Source of the DNA: Methylomonas subterranea
GTDB lineage: Bacteria; Pseudomonadota; Gammaproteobacteria; Methylococcales; Methylomonadaceae
Reading direction: 5' to 3'
Length of the DNA: 64,000 nucleotides
Assembly (NCBI RefSeq): GCF_024505185.1
Contig: NZ_JANIBJ010000014.1
Span: 42,820-106,819 of the forward strand
Below are positions 22,836 to 42,934 of the stretch, in pieces. The notes beneath the pieces were generated by a model. It made no database searches, was not told the DNA's origin, and saw only the letters and a list, made by a program, of their open reading frames with translations. Position numbers and translations under genes: made by a program. The first letter of the stretch is position 1. Every line of letters starts with the position of its first letter.

Positions 22836-23765
22836 TCATTTATCCGGCAGCGGAATCGCTTTTTTGCTTGAAAGCTTTTTCAACAATTTACCGACCAAGT
22901 CCAGCGCAACGCCCACCGCTTCGGAAACCCATTCAAACACGGTGGCAATGACTTCACCGACACTCATGCCTTTAAAGCGCTTGGCCAATAACGGCGCCAC
23001 CAAAATTCCCACCGCCAGACCCACAACACCGACACCGGACAGAAAACCACTGTCCGCCTCGGCGCCAGCGGCATCGCCGGCGGGTTTGCCGGCGGAAGAG
23101 GAAGCAGCCAACGCCAACGCGGCGCTAGCGGCCTTGGCCTCCGCTTCCTGAGCCGCAAACACCTTGGGATCAAACGGTTTGCCGCTGTAGTCGTCGGGAA
23201 AAACACTGGCCGTCAACCCGGGAATGCTGGGCAGGTCTTCGCTGCCCTTGCCCACCTTTAACTGGGCTTTCATGCCTTTTTCCATATGCTGGGCAATATC
23301 GCAATGCACCAGATAGGTTTTATCGCCGGGCGGTAAAATCAGCGTGCCGGAAACACTGCCGGGGCCACTGACTTCCAGATGAAACATGCCTTTCGGATAC
23401 AAATACTTGGGTAAACCATGCATCATCCACTGATGACGGATTTCGTCATCGTTGACAAAATGCACGGTCAATTTGGTACAAGGTTCGAATTGGTATTCCT
23501 GCTGGTCGAAGGCCCACATGGTGCCCGGAAATTTTTCCGAATATTTGTGCCCCGCGTGTACCGTAAGCTCCTTGGTGGCGGCTATTTTGTCGCAACCGCC
23601 GGGCAAGGTGTCCGTGTTTTGCCCCATCACCATGCCGCCATCCATGTCCATCAAGTGGCCATCGCCATGGTTCATCATGTTTTTGTGTTCCTGAAACTCT
23701 TTCGCGGAAACACCTGAAACAGACAACGCACAAACCAGAGCGGCAATCGATACTGTTTTGACCAT
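22836..23765 (-). CDS. membrane-anchored cupredoxin with Met/His-rich N-terminus
   Basis: A 309-residue exported protein. The start is ATG 23765 (GAGGAA nine bases before it), giving a signal peptide of about 22 residues cut after VSA. Next comes a Met/His-rich stretch (HKNMMNHGDGHLMDMDGG), a typical copper-binding segment, then a cupredoxin domain with a complete type 1 copper set: His in DEIRHQWMMHG, and Cys, His and Met in HCDIAQHMEKGM. An Ala-rich linker, a hydrophobic helix (GVGVVGLAVGILVAPLLA) and an amphipathic basic tail should hold it at the membrane. It is probably a periplasmic electron carrier or copper chaperone. It follows the small TM-anchored protein gene on the same strand. 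Confidence 0.82.
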   Translation of the reverse strand: MVKTVSIAALVCALSVSGVSAKEFQEHKNMMNHGDGHLMDMDGGMVMGQNTDTLPGGCDKIAATKELTVHAGHKYSEKFPGTMWAFDQQEYQFEPCTKLTVHFVNDDEIRHQWMMHGLPKYLYPKGMFHLEVSGPGSVSGTLILPPGDKTYLVHCDIAQHMEKGMKAQLKVGKGSEDLPSIPGLTASVFPDDYSGKPFDPKVFAAQEAEAKAASAALALAASSSAGKPAGDAAGAEADSGFLSGVGVVGLAVGILVAPLLAKRFKGMSVGEVIATVFEWVSEAVGVALDLVGKLLKKLSSKKAIPLPDK

Positions 23766-23852
23766 TAGAGCAATTCCTCTATAACTAAAGTCGACGTTTA
23801 AAAAATCTTGAACCCCTCGCCATAAAGAGCGCGGAATCCGGAAGCGGCAATC

Positions 23853-23885
23853 GTTCATCCCGCCGCGTGAAGGGGCGGGATGAAC
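23853..23885 (-). other. hairpin between the two copper-locus genes
   Basis: A perfect 12-base inverted repeat (23853-23864 with 23874-23885) with a nine-base loop, ten bases after the stop of the upstream gene and about 90 before the cupredoxin ATG. There is no T run, so it is more likely a processing or attenuation site that sets the ratio of the two proteins than a full terminator. Confidence 0.6.
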
Positions 23886-23894
23886 GCCGACAGC

Positions 23895-24488
23895 CTAAAA
23901 TTCTTTCGCTTTACCCAGCAATTCATCCACTTTGCGTTTGAACCCGGCGTGAGACAAATAAGCGATGTACAGGCCCGCAAATAGCACCAATGCGTACAAT
24001 CCCATGCTGCCTTTACTGGTTGGTTGTCCGCCGCCGGCCTTGAAGCTCATGTGCGCATCCAGACGCTCGCCGCTATCCTGCAGCAAGGTGATATGGATCA
24101 GATATTTACCCGCTTCGGGCACGCCGTTATCCAGATTCAGAATCACGGTACCGGATTTGTGTTTTTTGGGTTCCTGATAAAAAACCCGCGTGCCTTCCGG
24201 CTCCTTGGTGACTTCAAATTCAATGGCTCTATCGCGATAGCGTTGATCCTGATAATCGAATACCAACTGAATCAATGAATCGGTGTCGGGGATGTTGCCG
24301 CAGAACTCTTCGGCCGGATAGGCTTTAGGTTGATAAGCGGTGTAATGAATCCAATGGTCCTTTTCCAGCTCAAACTTACACTGATCGGTGTCCGTACCGG
24401 CGGCGCCGCCGTGCGCTAATGCCGCAGTGGAAAAAATCAGCCCGACCAGAGCAAAAAGACCATTTCTGAAAATACCCGATGTTTTCAT
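23895..24488 (-). CDS. exported protein with C-terminal membrane anchor, copper-locus partner
   Basis: A 197-residue protein starting at ATG 24488 (GGAAGGG six bases upstream). It has a signal peptide of about 25 residues ending ALAHG, so mature histidine is near the N-terminus, then two cysteines (DQCKFELEKD and EEFCGNIPD), a beta-rich domain (IEFEVTKEPEGTRVFYQEP; GKYLIHITLLQDSG) and one C-terminal transmembrane helix followed by a basic tail. This layout recalls PmoD/AmoD-type copper-associated proteins of methane and ammonia oxidisers, but I cannot confirm homology. It sits upstream of the cupredoxin gene in one unit. Confidence 0.7.
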   Translation of the reverse strand: MKTSGIFRNGLFALVGLIFSTAALAHGGAAGTDTDQCKFELEKDHWIHYTAYQPKAYPAEEFCGNIPDTDSLIQLVFDYQDQRYRDRAIEFEVTKEPEGTRVFYQEPKKHKSGTVILNLDNGVPEAGKYLIHITLLQDSGERLDAHMSFKAGGGQPTSKGSMGLYALVLFAGLYIAYLSHAGFKRKVDELLGKAKEF

Positions 24489-24676
24489 GTTTACCCTTCC
24501 CGTTGTTAATGTTTTATTATTATTCATGCACTTACGCATGATGCGACTCGGTATTATCCACCTTGATAAGCTAGCTGTCCCACCAAAAATCGGCCCTAAC
24601 TCTAGCACATCACCCCTTGCAAATAAAGGCATTACTTATATGGCTCTCGGCGCCGAACCGCTTGACGGAATTTTTT

Positions 24677-24778: not shown

Positions 24779-26419
24779 ATGTCCAAATTAATCGACTCCA
24801 CCGAATGGAACGCAGCCAAGCAACATCACCGGGAAATTGCCGGCAAATTCTGCATGAAAGAAGCATTCGCCAATGACCCTTTACGCTTCGATAAGTTCTC
24901 CATCACCTTTAACGATTTGCTGTTCGATTACTCCAAAAACCTGATCACCGACCAAACCCTGCCCTTATTGATTGAAGTCGCCAAGCGGGCCGAACTTTCG
25001 CAAAAAACCGAAGCAATGTTTTCCGGCTCCATCATCAATACCACCGAAAAGCGCGCGGTATTACATACCGCATTGCGCAACCGGGGCAACAAGCCGGTCT
25101 ATTTTCGCGGCCAGGATGTGATGCCGGAAATCAACAAAGTCCTGGCCAAAATGCGGGCTTTCACGGAACAGGTGCGTAGCGGCTGTTGGGCGGGCTATAC
25201 CGGCAAGCGGATCACCGACATCGTCAACATCGGTATCGGCGGCTCCGACCTGGGCCCCAAAATGGTGGATACAGCCCTTGCGCCCTACGGCATGGAAGGC
25301 TTGAAAGCCCATTTCGTGTCCAATGTCGACCAAACCGATATTGTCGAAACCTTGAAACCGCTGAATCCCGAAACAACGCTGTTCCTGATTTCCTCGAAAA
25401 CCTTTACCACGCAGGAAACCATGACCAACGCCCGTTCGGCGCGCAACTGGTTTTTGAACGGCGCCAAGGACTCCGCCCATATCTCCCGGCATTTCATTGC
25501 GATTTCCACCAACGAGGAAAAAGTTAGGGAATTCGGCATAGACCCCAAAAACATGTTCGAGTTTTGGGATTGGGTGGGTGGCCGCTACTCGCTCTGGTCG
25601 GTGATCGGCATGTCCATCGCCCTGTATATCGGCATGGACAATTTCGAGGAATTGCTGATGGGCGCCTATCTGGCGGACGACCATTTCCGCCACGCCCCGT
25701 TCGAGCAAAACATCCCCGTCATCATGGGCTTGCTGGGCATTTGGTACAACAACTTCTTCGAGGCCGAAACGTACGCCATTTTGCCTTACGCGCAATCGCT
25801 GAAATATTTTGCCGACTACTTTCAACAAGGCGACATGGAAAGCAACGGCAAAAGCGCCACCATCAACGGCGAAAAAGTCGATTACAATACCGGCCCGATT
25901 ATCTGGGGCCAACCCGGCACCAATGGTCAGCACGCCTTTTTTCAGCTGATCCACCAGGGCACCAAATTGATTCCCGGCGACTTTCTGGCCGCCGCGCAAA
26001 GCCAGTACGACCTGCCGGATCATCATGACATTCTGATTTCAAATTTTCTGGCGCAGGCGGAAGCCTTGATGCGCGGCAAAACCGAAGCGGAAGTCAGAAT
26101 GGATTTGAACCACGATCCCAACCTGGACGACGCGCTGATTGCGTCGAAAATTTTCGACGGCAATAAACCATCGAATTCGTTCCTGTTCAAAAAACTCACC
26201 CCCAGGACCCTGGGAACCCTGATTGCGTTTTATGAACACAAAATCTTCGTGCAAGGGGTTATCTGGAATATCAACTCTTTCGATCAGATGGGGGTGGAAT
26301 TGGGCAAGGTACTGGCCAAGGCTATTTTGCCGGAACTGAAAAATGAAGAATTAATTACCAGCCACGACAGTTCCACCAATGGCTTGATCAATACCTACAA
26401 GAAATTGCGCAAGGCCTGA
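24779..26419 (+). CDS. pgi: glucose-6-phosphate isomerase
   Basis: Interconverts glucose 6-phosphate and fructose 6-phosphate. The 546 residues match the E. coli-type enzyme, with the signatures [29 protein letters not shown] and [18 protein letters not shown]. In a RuMP-cycle methanotroph it links fructose 6-phosphate to glucose 6-phosphate oxidation and to glycogen or sucrose precursors. Single gene, bounded by its own promoter and a bidirectional terminator. Confidence 0.97.
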
Positions 26420-26464: not shown

Positions 26465-26489
26465 AAAAACCCGGCAGCGCCGGGTTTTT
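26465..26489. terminator. bidirectional terminator between pgi and the cohesin-like gene
   Basis: An 11-base stem (AAAAACCCGGC paired with GCCGGGTTTTT) with a three-base loop, T-rich on both strands, between two convergent genes. Confidence 0.92.
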
Positions 26490-26511: not shown

Positions 26512-27105
26512 TCAAACCTGTTTACGACGCCCCATCGGACCCAGCAGGCCCGCCAAACCGACGCCGAACAGCCAGGCCGCGGCCGGTAGAGGCACCACGC
26601 GTACTTGGCTGTTAACGTAATTGACATCAACCAACGTCCCGCTCGGCAAAGTAAACCCGGTATCGTCAAACGCGGGATTCCCAATACCGATGGTTGTTTC
26701 CGAGCCCACGGCGCCCAACACGTTGAAAGTGAACGATGCGATGGCAAAAGAGTTCCCGGCATCACCAGCGGTTAGTTTATTTAGAAATACGTAATCAATA
26801 ACCCCGGCATTTTCTTCACTCATAAAAGAGCTATCCCAGGGGGGATTGGCAACCGCGCTACCAACGTAGCTCAATACCAATGGATCCCAACTCAGCGAAA
26901 ACGCCGCCCCGTCGGGCCCCAAAGTGAAATCATATCCCCTCAGTTCCAATGTCAAAGTGTCGCCCGCATTCGCATTGATGATATTGCCTTGACTGAACAT
27001 CACGGTATTCGGCGCCACAACGGTAGCCGAAACTGGGGCTGAAAACATGGCAAGTAAGACCAAGCCACTAAGCATCGAAAGCGGCTTCTTAAAAATTTCG
27101 TTCAT
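26512..27105 (-). CDS. PEP-CTERM protein with cohesin-like domain
   Basis: A 197-residue exported protein starting at ATG 27105 (GGAGAA five bases upstream). The signal peptide runs to about residue 28 (PVSA). Residues 30-165 resemble a type I cohesin: AGDTLTLELRG, FSLSWDPLVLSYVG and FAIASFTFNVLG match the usual beta strands. The C-terminus is a PEP-CTERM-type sorting signal: VPLPAAAWLFGVGLAG, hydrophobic helix, then RRK, for cutting and anchoring by an exosortase. The gene directly upstream encodes a cytochrome with a dockerin, the natural ligand of a cohesin. The cohesin assignment rests on pattern, not on a search. Confidence 0.75.
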   Translation of the reverse strand: MNEIFKKPLSMLSGLVLLAMFSAPVSATVVAPNTVMFSQGNIINANAGDTLTLELRGYDFTLGPDGAAFSLSWDPLVLSYVGSAVANPPWDSSFMSEENAGVIDYVFLNKLTAGDAGNSFAIASFTFNVLGAVGSETTIGIGNPAFDDTGFTLPSGTLVDVNYVNSQVRVVPLPAAAWLFGVGLAGLLGPMGRRKQV

Positions 27106-27160
27106 GTATTCTCCGAATTTATTTGATATGGATGTATTCATTAAAAACTTCGCTATTTGC

Positions 27161-27196
27161 GCTTGAATCGGCCCAGCATCACGGGCCGATTCAAGC
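27161..27196 (-). terminator. hairpin after the cytochrome gene
   Basis: A perfect 14-base inverted repeat (27161-27174 with 27183-27196) with an eight-base loop, nine bases after the cytochrome stop and 56 before the cohesin-like gene's start. No T run follows on the minus strand, so some read-through into the cohesin-like gene is possible. Confidence 0.65.
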
Positions 27197-27204
27197 AATA
27201 AAAC

Positions 27205-29160
27205 TCAGGGCGCCATGCCCGATGGGCCCGACACTTTTCCCAAATATCCCTTTGCGATACTCAAATCGGTAGGGTCGACTATCCCATTTCCATTCAAATC
27301 TTCATGCCCGTTTGGAGACACTTTTCCCAGTAAAGCTTTTTGCCTGGACAGATCGGTAGGATCAACCACCTTGTTCTGATTGAAATCCGCATCACAGATA
27401 TTGCCGTAGCCGTCGCCGTCGGTGTCGCGCTGGTTGGCGTTGGCTATCAGCGTGCAGTTATCCAGATGATCGGGTACGCCGTCGCCGTCGCTATCCAACG
27501 CCGGCGCGGCGACGGACGCGGCGAACTCGGTACTGGCGATGACGGTGGTTTTATCGGCCGCGGCGTCGTACAGGGTTTTGAAATCCACCACTTCCGGCGT
27601 CGTCGTGTCGCTGAACAAATCCCGGGCAAAGCCATGGGCCAGGGTTTGATACACCAACTCCGCAGTCACGCTGTAATTGCCCGGCGGCAGGGTTTCGATT
27701 CGATAGCGGATCTCGTCGCTGCCGCCGACGAAATCGGCGTCGCTCAGCGCTTCACCCACCACCTGAATATCGCTTGGCGCGTTGAGTTTGTCGAAACCCT
27801 TAGGCAAGATACGATTGTCTTTCAGATATTCCTTGCCGCGCAGCAAGGTGTAAGTCACTTCGCCCAGGTTGTTGCCCATGATGGCTTCATAAACCTGGAC
27901 TTGCTCGGGTGATGAAATCAACTCGTAATGCGGCTCGAAACTACCCGGCACTTCGTCGGCATCGATACCCGCCACGCTGCCGTCGGGATTGACCTTGCCG
28001 GATTCCCAGACGATGGCATTCTGGCTATCGCGCACCGTAACGCGCAGGAAGGCGCGCCGCGACGGATAGGCAGTCGGCAGTTTGTGGCCGGTGGCACTGG
28101 TGGTTTTCAGGCTGAAATCCAGCGCGCCCGGCGTGTCATGTTGCTCAAGCACAGTCAGAGAGGCCGCGCTTTTCAGCATGGCGTCGGTTTTGGCGATGGT
28201 TTCCGGGAAGTTATTCGACAACACGCCCAGTTGGGTTTTATTGTCGTTCAGGATACCCAGCATCAGCTTGTTGGCGCCGATCAGGTCGTGAAGGGCGAAG
28301 TTATTCCGCTGAGGTAGGAACGGCGGTCGATTGGAAATGCGCACGCCATCGGCGCGGCCCATATGGCAGCCCTGGCAGCTTTTTTCGTCGACAAAACTGC
28401 TATGTTCCCATTCCATGTAAGGCGTCTGCTCGGGAAATTCCGATTCCGGCGTGGTGCTGAGGATATTGCCGGCCTCGTCGACAAAAGGCGTTTTCAGGTT
28501 ATGGCAGGAGGCGCACAACTTGGATTCCTTGACATGCGCACCGTAAGTCGGCGTATACCCCGACATCATGATCATGGGATTCGGAAACAAGGCCGTATCG
28601 CCCGGACCGCCGTAAGGACCGTAAATGGTTTTGCCGCTATTGATGTTGTAGTTACCCGACATGTGCGGCAAGGTCCCCAACGACGCGGAATTGGGAATTT
28701 GATGACACAGCGTGCAACTGACGCCGTCCATGGCGGCATTGTGGCCTGGATGGCCGGCGCTGAGTATGCCGCCGTCGAAAACGGTCTGGCCGGCGAGATT
28801 TCCGGCGAACTTGGCTTCGTAGTTCGCCATCGGCGCGTGGCATTTGGTGCATTTATCGTTGATCACGCCTTGCAACTCGGGATGCCGACTCAGTTCGCCG
28901 CGCACCTTGGCCTTCCAGAACGGATCGCGCGCGGAGTTGGCCATCATGGTCGACGACCAATCGGTGATGATGGAAACATCGACATTGTTTTTATCGCGGA
29001 TACCGTTATGGCACAGACTACAATTACCGGAGCCGGAAAAATGGGTGGTGGTGAAGGTATTGACGCCCGGCGCCTGCGGCGGCGCCAAAAAGTCCGCGCG
29101 GGATAGCCCCGGCGCAAGCGCCAGCCAGCACAGCAGCAAGCTTAGTATTCTTGGATGCAT
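27205..29160 (-). CDS. secreted pentaheme cytochrome c with thrombospondin-3 and dockerin repeats
   Basis: A 651-residue protein. A signal peptide (residues 1-22) is followed by five CxxCH haem sites at 47, 104, 149, 216 and 262 (CSLCH, CTKCH, CTLCH, CASCH, CQGCH). A long beta-rich region without haem motifs (about 300-555) follows. The C-terminus has calcium-binding thrombospondin type 3 repeats (DSDGDGVPDHLDNC, DTDGDGYGNICD) and then a type I dockerin-like pair: DFNQNKVVDPTDL and DLNGNGIVDPTDL, each with Asp/Asn at positions 1, 3, 5 and 12. It is exported and probably extracellular. Start chosen at ATG 29160 for the signal peptide; ATG 29202 is an alternative. Neighbours are two PEP-CTERM proteins, one cohesin-like. 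Confidence 0.88.
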   Translation of the reverse strand: MHPRILSLLLCWLALAPGLSRADFLAPPQAPGVNTFTTTHFSGSGNCSLCHNGIRDKNNVDVSIITDWSSTMMANSARDPFWKAKVRGELSRHPELQGVINDKCTKCHAPMANYEAKFAGNLAGQTVFDGGILSAGHPGHNAAMDGVSCTLCHQIPNSASLGTLPHMSGNYNINSGKTIYGPYGGPGDTALFPNPMIMMSGYTPTYGAHVKESKLCASCHNLKTPFVDEAGNILSTTPESEFPEQTPYMEWEHSSFVDEKSCQGCHMGRADGVRISNRPPFLPQRNNFALHDLIGANKLMLGILNDNKTQLGVLSNNFPETIAKTDAMLKSAASLTVLEQHDTPGALDFSLKTTSATGHKLPTAYPSRRAFLRVTVRDSQNAIVWESGKVNPDGSVAGIDADEVPGSFEPHYELISSPEQVQVYEAIMGNNLGEVTYTLLRGKEYLKDNRILPKGFDKLNAPSDIQVVGEALSDADFVGGSDEIRYRIETLPPGNYSVTAELVYQTLAHGFARDLFSDTTTPEVVDFKTLYDAAADKTTVIASTEFAASVAAPALDSDGDGVPDHLDNCTLIANANQRDTDGDGYGNICDADFNQNKVVDPTDLSRQKALLGKVSPNGHEDLNGNGIVDPTDLSIAKGYLGKVSGPSGMAP

Positions 29161-38081: not shown

Positions 38082-39725
<1,644 letters not shown>

Positions 39726-42650: not shown

Positions 42651-42934
42651 GCATACGCTCAATAAAAACCGGTGATTATCGCAAATTTATTACGGCGATA
42701 GAACCCGCCAGACCGAAAACCAGCTCGCGCCACACCCAACCAAGCTCCAGACCAAAACGACAACTTACACATATCGCCCCAAAGCCGCCCATCAACGGCC
42801 ATATGCGCCTTTCGGACAAATCAGCCCCGGACATTCCCTAAGCCAATCAAGGTAAACCGCGCCCCATGACAAAGGTTTGTTAGAATGCCGCAGCTTTAAC
42901 ACACTATTCCTAAACCATGGCGACGGGAGACCCC

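Follow-up and report, generated by a model that had tools for sequence, protein, structure and literature searches.

A five-haem c-type cytochrome with a C-terminal dockerin and a neighbouring protein with a predicted cohesin fold are encoded in a 64,000-nucleotide stretch of DNA from Methylomonas subterranea (the window; positions 42,820 to 106,819 of contig NZ_JANIBJ010000014.1), and the cohesin-type partner would probably tether the cytochrome to the cell surface. The window is part of contig 14 of a 4.41-Mb genome that is 99.9% complete, and methane oxidation is the likely lifestyle of the host. Both genes belong to a three-gene cassette on the minus strand that encodes, from 5' to 3', a PEP-CTERM-type protein of 372 amino acids (aa) (P0003, 29269–30387), the 651-aa cytochrome (P0002, 27205–29160) and the 197-aa cohesin-type protein (P0001, 26512–27105), the gap between the last two genes being 102 bases, counting the stop codon. 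Similar pairs exist at other loci, where PEP-CTERM-tailed cohesins lie beside dockerin-tailed clients that include other haem proteins. An earlier sequence-only reading of the window had located the cytochrome and cohesin-type genes correctly and had proposed their pairing; it overlooked the first cassette gene and the thrombospondin type 3 (TSP3) repeat of the cytochrome.

The cytochrome P0002 starts with a signal peptide recognized by eye (residues 1–22, 29095–29160), which is followed by a haem region (28363–29022) carrying five CxxCH motifs (CSLCH, CTKCH, CTLCH, CASCH and CQGCH) and a Cytochrome_C7 match (28 bits, above the Pfam cut-off of 24.8), in agreement with the five haems of the sequence-only reading. 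It is not a decahaem cytochrome of the OmcA/MtrC type, as it has five CxxCH motifs instead of ten and scores 24.5 bits with TIGR03507, against a cut-off of 209.3. The TSP3 repeat is found at residues 556–577 (27430–27495; PF02412, 32 bits, cut-off 25), and the PDB sequence matches to P0002 include chains of COMP and thrombospondin. A type I dockerin (Dockerin_1, PF00404) occupies residues 592–640 (27241–27387) and scores 26.5 bits, over a cut-off of 22.9. Its two F-hands, DFNQNKVVDPTD and DLNGNGIVDPTD, both have Asp or Asn at positions 1, 3, 5 and 12, in agreement with the sequence-only reading, and also at position 9, and in each of them positions 10 and 11 are Pro-Thr. In clostridia, F-hand positions 10 and 11 contribute to cohesin recognition. 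The presence of two similar F-hand halves in P0002 would fit the dual binding that the accessible part of one publication describes for type I dockerins (PMC12484212). The dockerin is followed by a GKxxGPSG tail that the alignment shows to be common to related methanotroph loci. Three close homologues (P0079, P0090 and P0099) bear the NCBI name 'dockerin type I domain-containing protein', and the homologues that have an organism name are assigned to Methylomonas, Methylococcaceae and similar.

By eye, P0001 consists of a signal peptide, a body (residues 29–170, 26596–27021) and VPLPAAAWLFGVGLAGLLGPMGRRKQV, a tail that has the motif-helix-basic anatomy of sorting signals (VPLPAAAW, helix, RRK; 26515–26595). 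The body is predicted to adopt the cohesin jelly-roll fold. Its AlphaFold2 (AF2) model has a predicted local distance difference test (pLDDT) of 84–94, and the listed structure matches (50 from Foldseek and 50 from VIA) have titles that name cohesins or cellulosome/cohesin-dockerin structures, with the exception of 2o4e, whose title names an interaction module of a Clostridium perfringens glycosidase. PF00963 is matched at E ≤ 1 by 13 of 47 P0001 homologues (best 1e-4), NCBI gives the name 'cohesin domain-containing protein' to a homologue sharing 51% identity, and a leave-out profile gives 28.7 bits on the P0001 body alone. A single-sequence search of the PDB with P0001 returned no cohesin match, and the profile of its homologues yielded two chance-level matches and nothing else against PDB sequences. 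The type I cohesin proposed by the sequence-only reading, which had staked its case on a hidden Markov model (HMM) match or a predicted structure, is supported by the predicted fold and the HMM matches of homologues. The exosortase tail that it had read on the same protein agrees with the tail anatomy and with the 38 of 47 homologues that match Pfam PEP-CTERM at E ≤ 1, though the scores of the tail itself are under the curated cut-offs.

Surface anchoring of P0001 is inferred from its sorting tail together with two exosortase genes (PF09721, 264.7 and 251.6 bits) and two type II secretin genes (gspD, above cut-off) in the genome. Only this conditional part is kept from the 'surface-anchored scaffold' proposed previously: P0001 carries a single cohesin body, not the several cohesins of a scaffoldin, and 'scaffold' is therefore too strong a word for what would be a one-client socket. 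The docking process could be pictured as follows: both proteins, which have signal peptides recognized by eye, would exit the cytoplasm through Sec; the PEP-CTERM-like tail of the cohesin protein would be cut by an exosortase, which would attach the protein to the cell envelope or to exopolysaccharide; the cytochrome would arrive at the same site, perhaps via type II secretion; and the two F-hands of the cytochrome, loaded with calcium, would insert into the cohesin, so that the five haems remain free to exchange electrons with a partner outside the cell.

The conservation of the pair was examined in a family sample of 151 genomes that includes the window's own (G000). A homologue of the cytochrome core is present in 28 of them, broken matches of G113 and tail-only matches being left out of this count, and all 27 other homologues that were read have five CxxCH motifs. 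Five of the 28 cytochromes (G000, G064, G117, G038 and G135) end in a dockerin or dockerin-like tail, and all five are adjoined by a cohesin-profile gene, which is interrupted in G038. None of the 23 tail-less homologues has an adjacent cohesin gene in the stretch read, the downstream side of G134 being cut by the contig end. The two genes therefore do stay together in relatives, a point on which the sequence-only reading had made its proposal depend. The pair is also found in two named genomes (L006, from Methylomonas sp. LW13, and L007). According to tblastn, a P0003 homologue (68–72% identical) lies upstream of the cytochrome in all five other TSP3-type loci searched (L006, L007, L146, L147 and L148) and is absent from all 23 dockerin-less cytochrome loci; in L163, L173 and L174, P0003 matches the tail alone. 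P0003 itself has a weak choice-of-anchor E match (20.8 bits, cut-off 23.8).

Some of these loci deserve a separate mention. The two pieces of the G038 cohesin gene (L148 and L197; C3:77241-77507 and 38730-39104) lie on the same contig at a distance of about 38 kb, as might result from the insertion of a large element. One tail-less cytochrome homologue, L170 (G111:C160), has its own hydrophobic IPIP...TRR end that resembles a sorting or membrane tail in place of the dockerin. A C-terminal autotransporter was considered for the tail-less cytochromes and rejected, as 15 of the 16 C-termini examined (of 23) end at or just past the cytochrome domain, the sixteenth being that of L170, and Pfam detected no autotransporter domain in the six tail-less homologues scanned.

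Beyond this cytochrome, Pfam models alone detect 28 cohesin matches in 20 of the 151 genomes and 71 dockerin matches in 42. A dockerin lies at most 5 kb from nine of the 28 cohesins, when about 0.12 would be expected for an assumed 4-Mb genome. At a distance of up to 600 bp, a dockerin accompanies eight of the 28 cohesins and none of 100 PEP-CTERM controls (Fisher p 2e-6), these controls being 100 tail-only matches (query start 109 or later) taken in listed order among the matches listed. With a looser F-hand motif, a dockerin-type open reading frame (ORF) adjoins 15 of the 19 cohesin loci read (all except L206, L207, L208 and L212); L207 stands for three Pfam matches in this count, and seven other Pfam cohesin matches fall outside it. 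All 34 listed pairs, which had already been chosen as adjacent and include near copies, are co-stranded, with a median gap of 71.5 bases and the cohesin downstream in 26. At the level of the class, a TSP3-dockerin tail profile matches 55 of 321 genomes at E ≤ 1e-6, many of these through TSP3 repeats alone.

Several clients in this set are haem proteins: a nine-haem MtrC/F-like cytochrome in G107 (L173), with L174 in G141 as a near copy, and a di-haem peroxidase-like (CCP_MauG-like) protein in G094 (L217), encoded by the last of four successive dockerin-type ORFs behind a cohesin-like gene (of three ORFs scanned, two have a Pfam dockerin at E ≤ 0.01). The genome of the window harbours a second pair, L185 (G000:C7:38959-42371), in which an Exo_endo_phos protein has a dockerin-like tail, below the cut-off in the protein scan and above it in a six-frame search, and a cohesin-like PEP-CTERM gene follows 221 bases downstream. 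When left out of the profile, the cohesin-like genes of L185 and L217a score 29.5 and 28.8 bits respectively, on columns from an alignment that once contained both; their broad-profile scores are circular because both were in that profile. In a metagenome-assembled genome (MAG) of Desulfobulbus (L054), a PEP-CTERM cohesin-like gene is flanked by dockerin ORFs.

Other arrangements were observed alongside these pairs. In L217 (G094:C2, 3964-13802 of the locus), two PEP-CTERM genes, of which one is cohesin-like, precede the four dockerin-type ORFs. L207 (G147:C22:73852-75635), from a genome of the same genus, has three Pfam cohesin matches within 1.8 kb, two of them in a 599-aa ORF that is cut by the contig end and possibly encodes a multi-cohesin scaffoldin-like protein. 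In L261 (G235:C58), a PEP-CTERM gene that does not match the cohesin profile is followed by dockerin-type ORFs, one of them CCP_MauG-like; this gene could encode a socket that is invisible to the profile. A class of dockerin-like C-termini that close with L-C-T-R-x-[RK]-C-A or a near variant occurs next to PEP-CTERM cohesins in L202, L203, L204, L214, L215, L216 and others.

The classes of the cohesins and of their neighbouring dockerins tend to match. Along a tree of 33 cohesins, the neighbouring dockerins switch class four times, compared with a mean of 13.4 after shuffling and with no value as low in 200 shuffles; the nearest BLAST neighbour shares the dockerin class for 31 of the 33. The tree comprises the cohesins with a dockerin neighbour, to the exclusion of L174 (a near copy of L173), L176 (whose partner is truncated at the end of the contig), L178 and partnerless cohesins, and the dockerin classes were assigned by eye from the tail sequences, not blind. 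Since near copies, joint inheritance, many long branches and classes assigned by eye all affect this result, it supports co-adaptation and does not prove it. G135 is an instructive case, albeit with caveats. Over residues 55–610 its cytochrome shares 56% identity with P0002, but the tail belongs to another dockerin-like class, and in the tree the G135 cohesin groups with six that have this class (support 97/95), as if the client had been retained while plug and socket changed together; the clade also contains the very long branch of L054, which has the other dockerin class. A more general view is about as probable as not: methanotrophs and other Gammaproteobacteria, with one case in the Desulfobulbus MAG, would use exosortase-tethered docking in which single-cohesin sockets, each matched in class to its dockerin, hold swappable clients (five- and nine-haem cytochromes, di-haem peroxidases, an extracellular nuclease), forming a modular equivalent of the cellulosome that is partly redox and built from one-client sockets.

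A number of results weigh against the docking of P0002 on P0001 or against its extension to other loci. P0001 alone has no Cohesin match in Pfam, and a profile built solely from Pfam-hit cohesins does not match it either. The tail of P0001 likewise stays under the curated cut-offs (PEP-CTERM, 14.2 against 20.7; VPLPA-CTERM, 22.9 against 25.35). A read-through fusion of dockerin and cohesin (the dockerin, the stop read as Gly, the leader and the cohesin, modelled as a single chain from a sound alignment) reached a predicted template modelling score (pTM) of 0.52, and its dockerin part folded poorly (pLDDT about 63), a result that is neutral on binding. In G038, which belongs to the same genus, the cohesin gene is interrupted though the dockerin is intact. 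No Pfam dockerin lies within 5 kb of 19 of the 28 Pfam cohesins, and the tail-only controls are not clean at larger distances, with two of 100 having a dockerin within 2 kb (eight of 28 for cohesins) and five of 100 within 5 kb (nine of 28). Class-wide, a profile-detected cohesin adjoins the dockerin in six of 20 regions from 13 genomes, the six being in six genomes. As for the class matching, the small 'other' dockerin class is unclustered in the tree (70 of 500 shuffles as low), neither dockerin class, the CTR class included, forms one clade, and shared inheritance of neighbouring genes can also produce such matching. Finally, the G135 dockerin is recognized from its motif and its CSRPRCA end, with no Pfam report at E ≤ 0.01.

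Three other explanations have to be compared with surface docking of the cytochrome. P0001 and P0002 might not bind each other at all, P0001 being a cohesin-fold beta-sandwich with another job such as matrix or sugar binding and the dockerin serving another cohesin or just calcium-dependent folding. The lack of confidence of the fusion docking model, the other predicted cohesin-like PEP-CTERM protein on contig 7 of the same genome and the 14 of 20 class regions where no cohesin was detected beside the dockerin would all agree with this; it is nevertheless quite improbable in view of the adjacency seen for 5/5 dockerin(-like) cytochromes and 0/23 others, of the tendency of cohesin class to track dockerin class and of the difference between cohesins and control tails within 600 bp (8/28 and 0/100).

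Alternatively, the joint may form but reside in the periplasm or at the inner membrane, with the cytochrome acting as a periplasmic electron carrier, since exosortase processing alone is no proof of exposure on the outer surface. TSP3 and dockerin modules are however typical of extracellular proteins, and the genome has the two type II secretin genes. Surface c-type cytochromes are moreover documented in another methanotroph, Methylococcus capsulatus, in the available part of the report (PMC6281684), and a periplasmic location seems unlikely. The joint might also serve adhesion or the biofilm matrix, the haem domain being structural or involved in signalling without outward electron transfer. 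This would suit the link of PEP-CTERM proteins with exopolysaccharide and the weak match to the flocculation protein PepA (19.5 bits, cut-off 80). It would also recall the cohesin-dockerin proteins of the sulfate-reducing partners of anaerobic methanotrophic archaea (ANME), which are treated as adhesins in the accessible part of one study (PMC10553843). We give such a role little credence, as the five CxxCH motifs are kept in 27/27 other cytochrome-core homologues read and other haem-protein clients exist.

A literature search conducted mostly without subscription papers retrieved no published account of cohesin-dockerin pairing, an exosortase-type socket or haem clients like those described here. 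The domains themselves are not new, because NCBI already names them singly; the absence of an account concerns the way they are paired, the socket of exosortase type and the haem proteins as clients. Saccharophagus degradans is also a gammaproteobacterium. As here, it has both dockerin- and cohesin-like modules, noted as candidates only, and the part of the publication that is accessible describes no pairing, exosortase tail or cytochrome (PMC2386152). The type I cohesin-dockerin pairs of clostridial cellulosomes (e.g. 1ohz, 5nrm and 6kge) involve scaffoldin repeats, SLH or sortase anchoring and glycoside hydrolase clients, whereas the locus has one cohesin, an exosortase-type tail and a redox client. 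Instead of a glycoside hydrolase or carbohydrate-binding client, as in a cellulosome, the locus has a five-haem cytochrome. Non-cellulosomal cohesins are reportedly covered in a review by Peer et al. (2009). Those of Archaeoglobus fulgidus (2xdh) and of C. perfringens glycosidases (2jh2, 2vo8) differ from P0001 in hosts, anchors and clients.

A role of ANME dockerin/cohesin proteins in 'MHC adhesion' has been raised as hypothetical in the accessible text of one paper (PMC5244752). In ANME and their sulfate-reducing partners, surface docking is proposed within methane-oxidising consortia, which is similar to the docking proposed for the locus; the hosts are archaeal or sulfate-reducing, and the available parts of the three sources describe neither an adjacent cohesin-cytochrome pair nor a PEP-CTERM cohesin (PMC5244752, PMC9012536, PMC10553843). 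In M. capsulatus, surface c-type cytochromes (MCA0421) are tied to extracellular electron transfer and carry current. MCA0421 resembles P0002 in being a methanotroph c-type cytochrome, and the accessible portion of the report mentions no cohesin-dockerin anchor (PMC6281684).

Downstream of the cassette, a stem-loop (26465–26489, listed on the plus strand) with an 11-bp stem and flanking A/T runs separates P0001 from a convergent gene (24779–26419) that codes for 546 aa, presumably glucose-6-phosphate isomerase. This stem-loop is possibly a terminator common to the cassette and the convergent gene; the region contains ten stem-loops, little more than in shuffled sequences (6.4, sd 3.2). Nearby, positions 22836–24632 encode a cupredoxin-like protein rich in His and Met, next to a protein in which a C-terminal membrane helix can be recognized by eye; the two may be related to copper.

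The pair bears on the way in which methanotrophs and similar bacteria retain cytochromes on their exterior, and on the function of exosortase-sorted proteins. Should PEP-CTERM cohesins prove to be sockets, a function would be available for many PEP-CTERM proteins that lack one at present, simple pull-down would suffice to test it, and the cohesin-dockerin joint would be a natural tool to wire redox proteins onto Gram-negative surfaces.

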